Program-made: the position numbers and the translations under genes
Shown here: piece by piece, positions 11,389 through 16,150 of the stretch
How the letters are laid out: the number at the start of each line of letters is the position of its first letter
Position numbering within the stretch: the first letter of the stretch is position 1
Origin: Candidatus Nitrospira allomarina
GTDB lineage: Bacteria; Nitrospirota; Nitrospiria; Nitrospirales; UBA8639
Direction of reading: 5' to 3'
NCBI RefSeq assembly: GCF_032050975.1
Contig: NZ_CP116967.1
Location: forward strand, 4,151,001-4,215,000
DNA length: 64,000 bases
Notes under the pieces: model-generated
The model's database searches: none
The model's input: the letters and a program-made list of their open reading frames with translations, nothing else
What the model was told of the DNA's origin: nothing

Positions 11389-11413
11389 AAACCATTTAAT
11401 CAATTTACTGGCA

Positions 11414-11630
11414 GAGGCTGGGGTTCGGCCCAGCAGCCGAGGTTTTGCCTGATGCGTCTCGAAGAGCGCGACCTTTGTTGTGGAGGCAAAAGGACCCAAA
11501 ACCATTGACGTCCCGCCCGGCCTCATAAGATTGATCAGACGCGAAGGGCGGAGACGGGCTAACTCGCGGCGCTCACACAAGCCCGCCAAGAAAAAGAGCG
11601 TCCGATCATGGGGTCGGGCGGCAGGCGTCG
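11414..11630 (+). repeat. Structured dispersed repeat, copy A
   Basis: The first of three related copies (A here, B at 11700-11889, inverted C at 15206-15398). Shared landmarks in order: a G/C hairpin, a CTTTTG/CAAAAG hairpin, CCAAAACCAxTGACG, a CCCG/CGGCCTCAT block, GGCTAACTCGC, AAGCCCGCC, AAAAAGAGCGTCC, CATGGGG and GGCAGGCGTCG. Hairpin 1 of this copy is GCTGGG (11417-11422) with CCCAGC (11429-11434). The second hairpin is disrupted by about 20 extra bases, so this copy looks the most decayed. No coding function is evident. Confidence 0.8.
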
Positions 11631-11699
11631 AACCAAAGGATCCTCATGCGTCAACGCTTCATCATATTTGTAGAGATCGTGTCGGCGTGATGTTCTGTG

Positions 11700-11889
11700 T
11701 TGCCGGGTTTCGCCCCGGCAGGCGAGCCACTTTTGTTTCGGCAAAAGTGGCCAAAACCAATGACGCCCCGTCTGGCCTCATGAGAGGGGACGGACGCCAA
11801 CTTGCGGAGAGCGGACCAACTCTCCTGGTTCAAACAAGGTCCGCAGGGGAAAAGAGCGTCCCTCCCTTTGCCCAGACGGCAGGCGTCGG
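11700..11889 (+). repeat. Structured dispersed repeat, copy B
   Basis: A direct copy of A and inverted relative to C. Hairpin 1 is TGCCGGG/CCCGGCA (11701-11707 and 11714-11720). Hairpin 2 is GCCACTTTTG/CAAAAGTGGC (11726-11735 and 11742-11751), a perfect 10-bp stem with a 6-nt loop. In copy C the equivalent stem reads GGCCCTTTTG/CAAAAGGGCC: both arms changed and pairing was kept. About 70 nt separate copies A and B. Confidence 0.85.
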
Positions 11890-12311
11890 AGTTCTCAGCT
11901 ACTCTGTCATTCTGAGCCACCGGCGAAGAATCTGTGCCCAGCCAACGAACGTATTCGTACTTGCAAAAAGACCTGGTGGATTTGCGTGTTTGGTTTCGGC
12001 CTCGAATAATTCTCGAAAAAACACAAATCTTTCCTTGACATATTTCGACGATTATTAAAATATCTCCTGGCCTGAACCTTTCAGGAAGTGATTCAATGGA
12101 TTAGCAGTTCGGGTGCCGGGCTTTGAGCTCATTCTAGAAGGTGGTGTGATGCCGATCTGAAAAAATCATGTGATAGATGGTCCCATAGTCGTAACTCATT
12201 CAAACGGAAATAATGATGGCGTTTTGCTCACGAAATTCGATGGAGTGCTATATGCACATAAAATCAGCACTCGGATCTTATGCGGGTCGGTCTACGTAAT
12301 TGGTTGCTCCC
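11890..12311. other. Non-coding left part of the island
   Basis: About 420 bp between repeat B and the P-loop kinase gene. Base composition becomes more AT-rich after 12,000. An open frame from 12170 (68 codons) lacks a Shine-Dalgarno and resembles nothing known. A small inverted repeat CCTGAA/TTCAGG is near 12,070. No integrase, attI or transposase is recognisable. Confidence 0.35.
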
Positions 12312-12773
12312 ATGTCGCTGAAAGAAATAACGGAAAACCATCTCTTACTTGTGCAACTGCTCAAGAAAGTACTTAATCCATGGAGGAAATTTACAATAGC
12401 CATCGATGGTGTAGACCATTCGGGAAAATCGACCCTTGCAAGGTTTCTTGCCTGGCAGCTAGAGATGCCCGCTATTGAGACGGACCTTTACCTATCCGGA
12501 TCAACAATGGTGCCATCTTACCATTGGAAGAAACTTAGCCTTCTTGTCCAATCTCGGCATAGACTCAATCGGCCTGTGATCATTGAAGGTGTTTTTGTTA
12601 AAAAGATACTTGAGCAACTGAAAGTTAAGCCTGACTTCTCAATTTACGTGGAGTGTTATGCATACACAGGCTCCGAAGAATGGCAAGAGGAATTTGCAAG
12701 ATACGCTATACAGTACTCACCCAGGGATACTGCACAATTCTTGTTTGTGAACCCTGGATCCGAGGGGAGCTAG
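12312..12773 (+). CDS. Short P-loop kinase-like protein
   Basis: A 153-residue protein with a uridine-kinase-like P-loop fold. Walker A is GVDHSGKST (residues 33-41). The acidic ETDLYL resembles the substrate-binding Asp region, and RPVIIEGVF (about 97-105) the Walker B strand. It is shorter than typical nucleoside kinases and lacks an obvious LID arginine cluster, so it may be a stand-alone small kinase or a truncated gene. The ATG at 12312 begins MSLKEI; a TTG at 12300 is in frame, and neither has a clear Shine-Dalgarno. It is the first gene in the island and is followed by the duplicated remnant R1. The substrate is unknown. Confidence 0.6.
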   Translation: MSLKEITENHLLLVQLLKKVLNPWRKFTIAIDGVDHSGKSTLARFLAWQLEMPAIETDLYLSGSTMVPSYHWKKLSLLVQSRHRLNRPVIIEGVFVKKILEQLKVKPDFSIYVECYAYTGSEEWQEEFARYAIQYSPRDTAQFLFVNPGSEGS

Positions 12774-12801
12774 CAACGATTTCGGGAAGGACCCAGAGCG
12801 T

Positions 12802-12899
12802 GCTTGGGGTGAGATCCTGCGATATGATTATGGATGATTATGCATTGGAATAGTTGAATGAAGCTGAAAGCCGAACGCGTGATTGCAAGTCCTGACCCC
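12802..12899 (+). repeat. Duplicated decayed coding remnant R1
   Basis: A 98-bp block that aligns without gaps to 14395-14492 (R2), 72 of 98 bases identical by my count, rising to near identity over AGCTGAAAGCCGAAxGCGTG. Differences cluster at third positions of one frame, in which both encode LGxRSC...ALxxLxEAESRxRxC. R1 carries an in-frame TAG there, so it is a relic. It runs into the 5' end of the HEPN-like ORF. Confidence 0.7.
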
Positions 12900-13379
12900 A
12901 GAAAACAGAAAGTGACCCCAGAAAGGAGCCCCGGTATACTGGCACGTGAGTGGCTACAGCGGGGGAAGTTGGCGCAATCGCCGATTGATGCATTCACCGA
13001 CTTCTGGCGTGCCTTCAACAACCTTTACAGCGCTCATCCCGGTATAAGGGAGATCGAAAGAGTTCGTGCGTTTTTGATGGCCAGAGTGCCATCTGTAGCC
13101 GCAGCAACGATACTCTCGTCTCATCAAGAGCAGGTCGACTATCTCTTGTCGCAACCAGTCAGTGACATGCGCGGTAATGGCCGAAATACCAAAACTGCAG
13201 TCGCGGCTTTCCGCGCAGGCGGTAGCGATCAGGAAAAGCTCTGTGAGCTGTTCACAATCATCTATCAAGTCAGATGCAACCTACAGCATGGCCAGAAGTC
13301 ACCGACTGTCGATCGGGACCTGCGTCTTTGCGAGTGCTCGGCTCCGGTAGTGGCGGAAGTCGTCGCATGCTCCGTATAA
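12858..13379 (+). CDS. HEPN-like protein ending in an attC-like site
   Basis: A hypothetical of up to 173 residues with a HEPN-type signature. The motif IIYQVRCNLQHGQKSP contains R-x4-H (Arg139, His144 counting from the ATG at 12858), the RNase motif of many HEPN toxins and defence proteins, followed by a charged RDLRLCE helix. The upstream segment is helical (AFTDFWRAFNNLYSAHPGIREIERVRAFLMAR). The first 14 codons lie in repeat R1, in a different frame from the coding frame of R1, so translation may really start downstream (for example the in-frame GTG at 12912). The TAA stop lies within the GTATAAC end of the attC-like site, as in integron cassettes. RNase activity is inference. Confidence 0.6.
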   Translation: MKLKAERVIASPDPRKQKVTPERSPGILAREWLQRGKLAQSPIDAFTDFWRAFNNLYSAHPGIREIERVRAFLMARVPSVAAATILSSHQEQVDYLLSQPVSDMRGNGRNTKTAVAAFRAGGSDQEKLCELFTIIYQVRCNLQHGQKSPTVDRDLRLCECSAPVVAEVVACSV

Positions 13380-13420
13380 CTATTAGCTCAAGCGGACGCC
13401 GCTTCGCTCAGGCGTTAAAC
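13374..13420 (+). other. Integron attC-like recombination site (short form)
   Basis: A 47-bp site bounded by GTATAAC (13374-13380) and GTTAAAC (13414-13420). The latter fits the GTTRRRY core; the former is one base off its complement GTTTAAC. Inside are CTCAAGCGGACGCCGCTTCG and CTCAGGCG, closely resembling the arms of classic attC sites (TTCAAGCCGACGCCGCTTCG... in aadA-type sites). The region between the arms appears shortened. It overlaps the HEPN-like stop codon and precedes the next start by about 20 bp. No integrase gene is in the window. Confidence 0.6.
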
Positions 13421-13439
13421 CAATTAGAGAAGGTGTAAT

Positions 13440-14357
13440 TTGAGAATGAAAGATTATAGGGATTTTCCAACGCTGCAAATTCTAAAAGAGATAGAAAACT
13501 CGCCTACTATGAGATTGATGCGTGCTTTGGAAAATTTTCCTGCCATGAAGATGCTCCGGAAACTTGAGGAATCCAGCGCAATGGCATCAATCAGGCGGCT
13601 GGAGGATTCGTCGTCTATGCGGGCTATCCGCCAGCTTGAGAATTCTTCGGTAATGCTGGCTATGCGTGAACTTGAGGACTCACCAGCCAACGCTGCGTTA
13701 AAGAAACTTGAAGAGTCCCCAGCCATGGAGGCGATTAGGAACCTTCGGGATTCTCCGGCATTAAGCGCTATTCGTGCAATCCAAAACTTGCCGGTCATGC
13801 GAGCGTTCTCGGAAGTGGCAGATCGATTGGCGTATGCCTACGGTCCGCTCACCCTCAGAAATGCATATAACGAAATTATTAGGAGCTATGAACAAACCAC
13901 TGCTACGTCTTCAATAGACCCCTTTGAGGCTGTATTCGCAGACGTTCAGAAACAAGCAGATCAGTCTCCTGCAGAAGCCTTAAGTGCTGAGTTCTTTCTG
14001 AGTTTAGTATTTGCGTTTTTCTTGTTTTCATTATCTCAAATGGAAGCTTCTGACTCAGAAGATCGCATAATTCGTCAGATTAAAGATTTGGAGGATCGGA
14101 TTGTTCAGCAGTTGGAAACCCTGCAGGGCAGTGAGCAAAACGACACTTTTTATGTTGTTGAACGACCTCTGAATTTAAGAGCGGGTGCTGGGAAAATGCA
14201 CGAAGTGAGGGAGGTTTTACCTTCCAATTTAAAAGTGCGTGCAACTGACAGACAGGCGCACTGGGTTAAAGTGGAATACTACGACTATCTAGAGCGAAAA
14301 ATAAAAACAGGCTGGGTGGATGAAAGGTATTTGGTGCTGATAGGTTCCCGCAAATGA
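13440..14357 (+). CDS. Protein with ten 12-residue repeats, a membrane helix and an SH3-like domain
   Basis: A 305-residue protein, family not recognised. Residues 10-129 are ten consecutive 12-residue units of consensus S-P-A-M-x-A-I-R-x-L-E-D/E/N-type (for example PAMKMLRKLEES, SAMASIRRLEDS, PAMEAIRNLRDS), probably an extended helical array. Next come a helical spacer, a hydrophobic segment (FFLSLVFAFFLFSLSQ, about 184-200), a coiled-coil-like stretch (DRIIRQIKDLEDRIVQQLETL), and a C-terminal bacterial SH3 domain (ERPLNLRAGAGKMHEV, HWVKVEYYD, KTGWVDERYL). The TTG at 13440 has AGAAGG 6 nt upstream; the ATG at 13446 is the alternative. It follows the attC-like site directly, so it could be a former cassette gene. 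Function unknown. Confidence 0.65.
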   Translation: MRMKDYRDFPTLQILKEIENSPTMRLMRALENFPAMKMLRKLEESSAMASIRRLEDSSSMRAIRQLENSSVMLAMRELEDSPANAALKKLEESPAMEAIRNLRDSPALSAIRAIQNLPVMRAFSEVADRLAYAYGPLTLRNAYNEIIRSYEQTTATSSIDPFEAVFADVQKQADQSPAEALSAEFFLSLVFAFFLFSLSQMEASDSEDRIIRQIKDLEDRIVQQLETLQGSEQNDTFYVVERPLNLRAGAGKMHEVREVLPSNLKVRATDRQAHWVKVEYYDYLERKIKTGWVDERYLVLIGSRK

Positions 14358-14394
14358 TCACGATTCCGGCTCAAAAAAGGGAAATACTGTCGAT

Positions 14395-14492
14395 GCTTGG
14401 GTTCAGGTCTTGCCATATAACAGCAGATGGACACGCTCTGGGATATTTGAGTGAAGCTGAAAGCCGAATGCGTGCTTGCAATACCAGAACCC
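14395..14492 (+). repeat. Duplicated decayed coding remnant R2
   Basis: The partner of R1 (12802-12899), same orientation, 72 of 98 bases identical without gaps. Here the shared frame is open, from an ATG at 14354 that overlaps the preceding stop (ATGA). It gives a 50-codon ORF containing LGFRSCHITADGHALGYL and SEAESRMRACN. Whether this is expressed or only less decayed than R1 cannot be told. R1 and R2 bracket the HEPN-like and 12-residue-repeat genes. Confidence 0.65.
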
Positions 14493-14626
14493 ATGCCCTT
14501 CTTTGAGGACCGACGCCCCGTATCGTTGAGGTCCGGTGGAGATTCGATTAATGTCATCGAACTCTCCACTGGGACCAAATGGCCTCCGGGCTACAAAGTC
14601 GCGGACTCCGTTGGGTGTGACCTAAA

Positions 14627-15034
14627 CTAAATCGACTCCCAAACTTGCCTAAAGGTACCCGGTGTTGGCACACGAATATTGAACCAATTCTCACGGCAAA
14701 CCGCTGCTTGCTCCTGCCTGACGGATCTCCCTGGGTGAAGAACGACCTCATCGCCGGGAATGCCGGTTTCTTGAGTCACTACAATTACGTTAAGAGGCGG
14801 CAAATCGTTGCTTTTGCAGTACTCGCCTATGATACCGAGTTGTCTGCCAAGAACATGGCCCGCTCGGCCGTCTTGACCCATCTTTGTGGCTAATTTGCCA
14901 TAAGTAATGGTTTTCCTTTTGGTTCTCCCTTCCTCACCAAACATCACAAATGCTACAAGAACCATCCAGATCTGCTGTGCCTGCACGTACAATCGGTCGC
15001 CCCGCTGGTACCGCTTCACCTTCGGAATATTCAT
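14627..15034 (-). CDS. Small protein resembling an alkyltransferase-like winged helix
   Basis: 135 residues, cytoplasmic. The start is the ATG at 15034 (MNIPKVKRY), chosen because AGGAGG lies 5 nt upstream; the longer frame to 15232 runs into repeat C. The central segment TITYGKLATKMGQDGRAGHVLGRQLG resembles the DNA-binding winged helix of O6-alkylguanine transferase-like proteins (TxxYGxLA...ARxVG). The rest, YCKSNDLPPLNVIVVTQETGIPGDEVVLHPG and FNIRVPTPGTFRQVWE, looks like a conserved, still unnamed family. The transferase PCHR motif is absent. It is the only intact minus-strand gene in the island. The domain link is inference from a short pattern. Confidence 0.65.
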   Translation of the reverse strand: MNIPKVKRYQRGDRLYVQAQQIWMVLVAFVMFGEEGRTKRKTITYGKLATKMGQDGRAGHVLGRQLGIIGEYCKSNDLPPLNVIVVTQETGIPGDEVVLHPGRSVRQEQAAVCRENWFNIRVPTPGTFRQVWESI

Positions 15035-15205
15035 AGCACCTCCTGAATCTGTGAGCGCATTAGAATATACATGTGCAGTTCTGCTCAAATCGCTCAAAGA
15101 GTGATTATGGCCAGGTCTTTGAATATAGTATAGAGAGATCCGAAAATTCAGCCCATGCTGAGTTATGTCGTGGAGCTTTTCTTCTCCCTTTCTTCTTCCT
15201 TTCCC

Positions 15206-15398
15206 CGACCAACGCCTGCCGTTCGGCCCCATGGGCGGATGCTCTTTTCAGCCGGCGGGCCTTGTCTGAGCCTGGCGAGTTGGTCCGCCCTCATTTCCTA
15301 CATCCGCCCAATCCGATGAAGCCGAACGGGGCGTCAATGGTTTTGGGCCCTTTTGCCGGAACAAAAGGGCCTCGGCTGCCGGGCCGAAACCCGGCAAA
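15206..15398 (-). repeat. Structured dispersed repeat, copy C (inverted)
   Basis: The inverted copy of A and B, closing the island on the right, and the best-preserved copy. On the plus strand, hairpin 2 is GGCCCTTTTG (15346-15355) with CAAAAGGGCC (15362-15371), a perfect 10-bp stem with a 6-nt loop. Hairpin 1 is TGCCGGG (15377-15383) with CCCGGCA (15390-15396). The remaining landmarks of copies A and B follow in reverse order to 15206. No open frame is shared among the copies. Confidence 0.85.
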
Positions 15399-15610: not shown

Positions 15611-16150
15611 TTAAAGGGATTCCTTACTCGGACGAACCCCTTGGGGGAATTGCAGGGATTTCCAATATCGAATACCCGCTTTGCTCGGAACAAACAGGGT
15701 TTTAAGCATCGTCTCTACGAAAAGGGGGGCCGTCCCAAACAATAGACGCCGGGATCACAGGCGCACCTGATTTGATCGCCAAATAGCCAACACCCAAATG
15801 CCCCGCATCTAAACGATGCCGCCAATCCAATCCGCCTTCCGGAAAAAGGCCGATCACCTCCTGCGCTGCCAAACCATCTAACATCGTGCGAATCGCCCGG
15901 ATATCCCGCTTGCCTCTTTTTACCGGAATACACCCAAACGCGTGAAACACCCAACGGATGTGTAACTGAGCATAAATCTCTTTCGCCATTAAAAACCGGA
16001 TAGACGAGCTGCGGTGGCCCATAAGACCAATGGGTCCGACATGGAGGTATGGTCACAAACAATCAACGCCGGCCCCTGAACTGAAACCGGGCAAGGCAAC
16101 GCGGCCGTCACCCCATACATGAGCCGACAGACCAAGGAGTTCAATTGATG
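15611..16150 (-). pseudogene. Frameshifted PlsC-like acyltransferase
   Basis: Remnant of a 1-acylglycerol-3-phosphate acyltransferase-type gene, readable only by switching frames. The upstream frame gives LNSLVCRLMYGVTAALP, then ALIVCDHTSMSDPLVL, which matches the NHx4D motif with Asn replaced by Asp. A shift near 16020 moves to SSIRFLMAKEIYAQLHIRWVFHAFGCIPVKR, the FPEGG motif and SGAPVIPASIVWDGPPF. A second shift near 15716 moves to VETMLKTLFVPSKAGIRYW and a stop at 15611-15613. The 5' end is not clear: an in-frame stop lies just above 16150. It abuts the island, suggesting decay after insertion nearby. Confidence 0.8.

Follow-up and report, generated by a model that had tools for sequence, protein, structure and literature searches.

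A twelve-residue repeat array joined to a membrane helix and an SH3 domain in Candidatus Nitrospira allomarina, with relatives on phage-plasmids

What kind of protein carries an uninterrupted array of 12-residue units ahead of a membrane helix and an SH3 domain, and how did its gene come to lie in a variable part of a Nitrospira chromosome? The gene was singled out in a stretch of 64,000 nucleotides of Candidatus Nitrospira allomarina (hereafter, the window; NZ_CP116967.1, positions 4,151,001 to 4,215,000) by an original prediction that also placed a coiled coil before the SH3 domain, regarded the gene as a possible travelling cassette and proposed a role as sensor or membrane-stress effector.

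Architecture of the window protein

The predicted order of repeat, membrane helix, coiled coil and SH3 domain is confirmed by Pfam, hydropathy and AlphaFold2 (Table 1). The open reading frame begins with TTG, with a purine-rich AGAGAAGG upstream at 13426-13433, and an alternative ATG start is possible at 13446, two codons 3' of the TTG. The SH3 domain scores above the cut-off of its Pfam model (31.4 bits versus 27, E = 2e-7), and by sequence the closest solved structure is 2kq8, the SH3 domain from a cell wall hydrolase (E = 0.019). The membrane helix is the top hydrophobic 19-residue stretch of the protein (mean hydropathy 2.08) and lies centrally, no N-terminal signal peptide being seen in the sequence; the charges on its flanks do not settle the topology.

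Table 1. Features of the repeat gene and its locus (window coordinates)
Feature	Position	Strand	Basis
CDS, 305 aa (12-residue array, spacer, membrane helix, coiled-coil-like helix, SH3_3)	13440..14357	+	ORF and Pfam
Ten 12-residue helical units, residues 8-127, consensus (D/E/N)SPAMxAIRxLE	13461..13820	+	Periodicity and shuffles, AlphaFold2, HMM
Spacer, residues 128-179, predicted helical	13821..13976	+	AlphaFold2, low confidence
Single membrane-like helix, residues 180-198, ALSAEFFLSLVFAFFLFSL	13977..14033	+	Hydropathy; conserved in G290 homologue
Coiled-coil-like helix, residues 207-229	14058..14126	+	AlphaFold2; gap-free alignment to G290
SH3_3 (bacterial SH3) domain, residues 244-298	14169..14333	+	Pfam PF08239
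Variable insertion between uracil-DNA glycosylase gene and acyltransferase/TldD-PmbA-type genes	11392..15336	.	Synteny
attC-like element, GTATAAC 13374-13380 ... GTTAAAC 13414-13420	13374..13420	+	Sequence only; not supported as functional attC

The ten units are uninterrupted, as had been proposed, and the limits first given for them (residues 10-129) were shifted by two residues. When the array is compared with itself at lag 12, 45 of 110 positions are identical, compared to a maximum of 21 among 20,000 shuffles, with further peaks at lags of 24 and 36, and the mean amino-acid identity between units is 36%. Across the units, codon position 3 has diverged to 31% identity versus 68% at position 2, and this pattern in the DNA therefore indicates an old array that selection has maintained at the level of the protein, rather than a recent duplication of the DNA. 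The repeat is real and, as the original prediction had supposed, unnamed: no model in Pfam, NCBIfam or PHROG describes it, and a literature search with most subscription journals outside its reach found no description of either the repeat or the family defined by the membrane helix and SH3 domain.

Structural predictions calculated with AlphaFold2 without an alignment render each unit as one helix of approximately 10 residues followed by a short turn, the full-length model being poor in the SH3 half. With a six-row alignment, the array attains a mean pLDDT of 75.7 at a pTM of 0.31, within the range of the window models (0.28-0.31, or about 0.3), at which the helices are predicted and their packing is not confident. 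Foldseek comparison of these models with PDB folds returned no usable match.

A family with exchanged N-terminal arrays

Sequence comparison indicates that the membrane-helix and SH3 half defines a wider family in which the N-terminal helical arrays have been swapped. The window protein is linked directly to this family by a homologue in genome G290, which is 33% identical over 141 gap-free C-terminal residues (E = 6e-28) and differs at its N-terminus. A family member from the same genus (G015; L022 1264-2316) is 350 residues long and combines short-helix repeats with a membrane helix and SH3_3; the repeat HMM scores it at E = 3e-9, but its period is 23 (units of 12 and 11 residues), and it occupies another locus, next to a PIN_3 gene. 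This G015 protein is in turn 28% identical over 238 residues to a Citrobacter phage-plasmid protein (E = 5e-22 pairwise, 7e-15 in the plasmid search). Methods including all-against-all BLAST added members in G194, Advenella, Azospirillum and enterobacterial phage-plasmids. The phage-plasmid proteins are chained to the window protein via Advenella, G015 and G194, the direct similarity between their SH3 proteins and the window C-terminus being low (about 20%).

The search for homologues with varying arrays that the original prediction had called for thus found them, with N-terminal periods of 12 in the window protein, 23 in G015, and 19 and 13/17 in two Citrobacter phage-plasmids, and with no clear period in the E. 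coli, G194 and G290 members. Since the array differs from member to member, the anchor is the constant part of these proteins and the array the variable one. The distribution is patchy, with four convincing members among 296 Nitrospirota genomes, and PADLOC yields no convincing model match for the window protein or its membrane-helix and SH3 relatives. The array of one Citrobacter phage-plasmid protein (L034 3990-5435, + strand) is near-perfect, with a unit of 19 residues (SERMTKLAQGSTIADSVSL).

Relatives at the sim locus of P1-like phage-plasmids

The E. coli relative is present in 69 of 5426 complete genomes, on plasmids in every case and never on the chromosome, and it also occurs in IMG/VR viral contigs. 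On the IncY plasmids, ant and icd lie on one strand, followed on the other by simA, a gene for an exported protein of 168 aa, the SH3 gene, pmgC and tub. Identity to P1 is 90% for simA (first 42 residues), 94% for icd, 95% for ant and 98% for pmgC and tub. Because these flanking genes match those of P1, the IncY SH3 gene and its upstream neighbor occupy the position of P1 simB-simC. P1-like phage-plasmids have eight regions that vary strongly, sim among them (PMC9603915), and P1 Sim is credited with superinfection exclusion, possibly through a block of DNA injection, in a passage of PMC8546580 that cites Kliem and Dreiseikelmann (1989). By analogy of position, a gene in the simB-simC slot may do the same job as sim.

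The resemblance to P1 SimC is one of locus position: SimC has a signal-peptide-like start, no SH3 domain and no repeat, and shows neither sequence similarity nor homology to the SH3 relatives. The IncY/P1-like SH3 domain-containing protein (e.g., WP_024174696.1) shares with the window protein a variable N-terminal helical region, a membrane helix, a C-terminal SH3_3 domain and mobility. It differs in having no clear N-terminal period in E. coli (the Citrobacter proteins carry 19- or 13/17-residue arrays) and in lying in the sim operon behind two exported proteins, whereas the window gene is chromosomal. The latter lies in an insertion and not in a recognizable prophage or a phage-plasmid sim locus, and hence we do not claim that it is a sim-locus gene.

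The same repeat in other proteins

Judged by its sequence, the 12-residue repeat is a shared module that recurs in unrelated architectures, mostly in plasmid genes. By tblastn, the same units were identified in a Sphingomonas plasmid protein (43% identity over query residues 21-99, E = 3e-6), encoded near a XamI-type restriction-modification pair and directly downstream of a recombinase gene. Furthermore, a scan of 85,000 genomes with a degenerate DNA pattern recovered Sphingomonas relatives and a Pseudomonas putida protein with a long 12-residue array; three of the 12 pattern matches in genome contigs (L011, L013 and L015) are real, and most of the remainder are chance P/A-rich or wrong-frame matches. 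Neither short exact patterns nor tblastn recovered relatives of the full window protein from genome contigs, viral contigs or phages.

In a Paracoccus plasmid protein (WP_271110033.1), about five 12-residue units precede a Swt1-type HEPN domain. A repeat HMM built without this protein scores it at E = 3e-12, with an hhalign probability of 95%, and its HEPN part matches the PADLOC defence candidate PDC-M34B at 4e-18; RNases from defence and conflict systems are numerous in the HEPN superfamily (PMC3710099). The protein has a HEPN effector and no membrane helix or SH3 domain was found in it, whereas Pfam and PADLOC place no HEPN_Swt1 domain in the window protein, so that only the repeat is common to the two. 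Among 396 Nitrospirota genomes tested, the repeat accompanies one of 28 Swt1-HEPN loci, and weakly (G184, beside XhoI and Eco57I-type methylase genes), which makes the association sporadic in this phylum.

Restriction-modification genes adjoin some carriers of the repeat (Sphingomonas, the Paracoccus Swt1-HEPN protein and P. putida). As to whether homologues lie in defence islands, some relatives, such as that of Sphingomonas, have defence-type surroundings.

The P. putida GM4FR protein (L015 4909-6312, - strand), encoded beside nhaA, carries approximately 18-19 nearly identical 12-residue units, suggestive of a recent expansion. Its N-terminal part is common to a P. syringae plasmid protein, which retains this domain with a different 12-residue unit (NPAQSAIDQLMK). 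Its Pfam, NCBIfam and PHROG matches (NNH3, TAT extension and others) were ignored, being scattered over unrelated families as is usual for repeats. A Sphingomonas-type gene (L013 2955-3557, + strand) lies on a contig filed as the cyanobacterium Tolypothrix; that assembly probably includes a contaminating associate. Matches on Klebsiella and Enterobacter plasmids were rejected, the one inspected being the translation of a DNA repeat array that lies behind an IncR replication gene and is open in many frames, as were L004 (amidase and SH3) and L005 (MgtE_N-type), with which only SH3 or weak helical similarity is shared.

The insertion locus

The insertion that holds the repeat gene spans 3.9 kb in the window, compared to about 425 bp at the same site in G011, a congener without it; G015 carries other ORFs there, including one for an FRG-domain protein. 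In the window the repeat gene shares it with a P-loop kinase-like ORF and a HEPN-like ORF. The first of these (12300-12773, + strand) has weak cytidylate kinase and VakA matches. The second (12858-13379, + strand), directly upstream of the repeat gene, contains a HEPN-like R-x4-H (RCNLQH); it exceeds the cut-off of no Pfam model (weak MauJ, E = 0.05), matches no HEPN model and has no homologue among plasmid proteins.

The empty site in G011 supports an accessory location for the gene and its mobility. Its travel as an integron cassette, proposed from the attC-like motif, is unsupported, because that motif folds no better than shuffles (z = -0.96) and occurs just once in the genome, where no integron integrase exceeds the cut-off (TIGR02249, 265 bits).

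Possible function of the window protein

Taken together, these data lead us to favor, tentatively and at somewhat short of an even chance, a mobile membrane-anchored protein that captures or senses a target in conflicts between mobile elements. The predicted secondary structure suggests that the ten units form ten short amphipathic helices offering a repetitive binding surface for some ligand. The membrane helix and the coiled coil would provide an inner-membrane anchor, probably oligomerizing, and the SH3 domain may hold a wall or envelope partner. Exchange or re-tuning of the array on a retained membrane helix and SH3 domain would direct the same chassis to different targets. By analogy with the P1 sim locus, the most likely use would lie at the envelope, where the protein would block or sense phages or other elements coming in. 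Exclusion of invaders is the leading idea because relatives on P1-like phage-plasmids occupy the position of P1's exclusion genes; the sensor or membrane-stress effector role envisaged in the original prediction is possible, but these relatives favor exclusion more. Against the conflict role stand the lack of convincing PADLOC matches, the non-homology of P1 SimC, the low direct similarity of the phage-plasmid proteins to the window C-terminus, the undecided flanking charges, the low pTM and the fact that the sim position was seen for the E. coli phage-plasmid relatives and not for the window gene.

Association with the cell wall is common among SH3_3 domains. The window protein might accordingly report on envelope stress or wall integrity, a periplasmic SH3 domain binding peptidoglycan and a cytoplasmic array relaying the signal to a partner, with its presence on mobile elements incidental. 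The cell wall hydrolase match and the single central membrane helix without a signal peptide agree with such a sensor, but the patchy distribution and the phage-plasmid and hotspot locations do not, and we consider it rather unlikely, if the most serious of the alternatives. Less probable again is a toxin, antitoxin or abortive-infection pair in which the membrane protein senses and the HEPN-like ORF acts as a killing RNase. The RCNLQH motif immediately upstream, the PIN_3 gene immediately upstream of the G015 homologue and the Paracoccus fusion of the same repeat to Swt1-HEPN all point that way; however, the ORF matches no HEPN model or plasmid protein, most family members have other neighbors, and the repeat is nearly absent from Nitrospirota Swt1-HEPN loci.

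Two further readings are improbable. The array could be a distant ARM-like superhelix of the MgtE_N/FliG type and the protein an ion- or motor-related regulator, since the MgtE N-domain and FliG are described as ARM-like superhelices of short helices, and the MgtE N-domain and FlgY as right-handed ones (PMC11870540), similar in shape to the array. The claim that a 12-residue period is unlike TPR, HEAT or leucine-rich repeats was incomplete in this respect, as the one-helix shape has precedents in these proteins, and short single helices about 12 residues apart make them the nearest analogy in spacing and shape; the array may work in the manner of such a superhelix. Kinship, however, was not found: the MgtE_N (PF03448) matches of the window protein (13 bits versus a cut-off of 25.9, E = 0.15) and of the P. 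putida protein (E = 8e-5) both fall below the cut-off, and such scores are inflated by repetitive proteins; the repeat consensus and profile are unrelated in tests (2% hhalign probability against a Nitrospira MgtE-type N domain), and no PDB fold matches. This reading is therefore given very little weight, and marginally less goes to an integron cassette product of arbitrary function mobilized by attC recombination, for which the attC-like motif immediately upstream and the run of unrelated small ORFs would speak, but which is disfavored by the lack of an integrase and the unique, unstructured site.

A broader proposal, of which we are more doubtful, is that these proteins make up a new class, anchored in the membrane and serving immunity or superinfection exclusion. 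Their constant membrane-helix and SH3 chassis would carry exchangeable short-helix arrays and spread between chromosomal hotspots and phage-plasmids, the 12-residue unit being loaned to HEPN-type effectors as well. If the favored conflict role is right, the SH3 gene would be a candidate superinfection-exclusion gene, carried by P1-like phage-plasmids without simB-simC in their place. In addition, an unnamed 12-residue repeat family common to several mobile-element proteins is now described.

Repeats and a split gene around the insertion

Direct repeats of 100 bp (12801-12900 and 14394-14493, 74% identical) flank the repeat gene together with the HEPN-like ORF, and are possibly duplication or recombination sites; a genome search found one further copy, which is partial. 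Repeat families in inverted orientation lie at both ends of the insertion (11417-11889 and 15209-15397), with related copies at the G015 locus, and look like intergenic elements at the borders of a hotspot. The window acyltransferase gene (15702-16062, - strand) is split into a 106-aa ORF and an overlapping ORF in another frame; since its G008 counterpart is a single ORF of 233 aa (L093 5224-5925), the window copy looks frameshifted.
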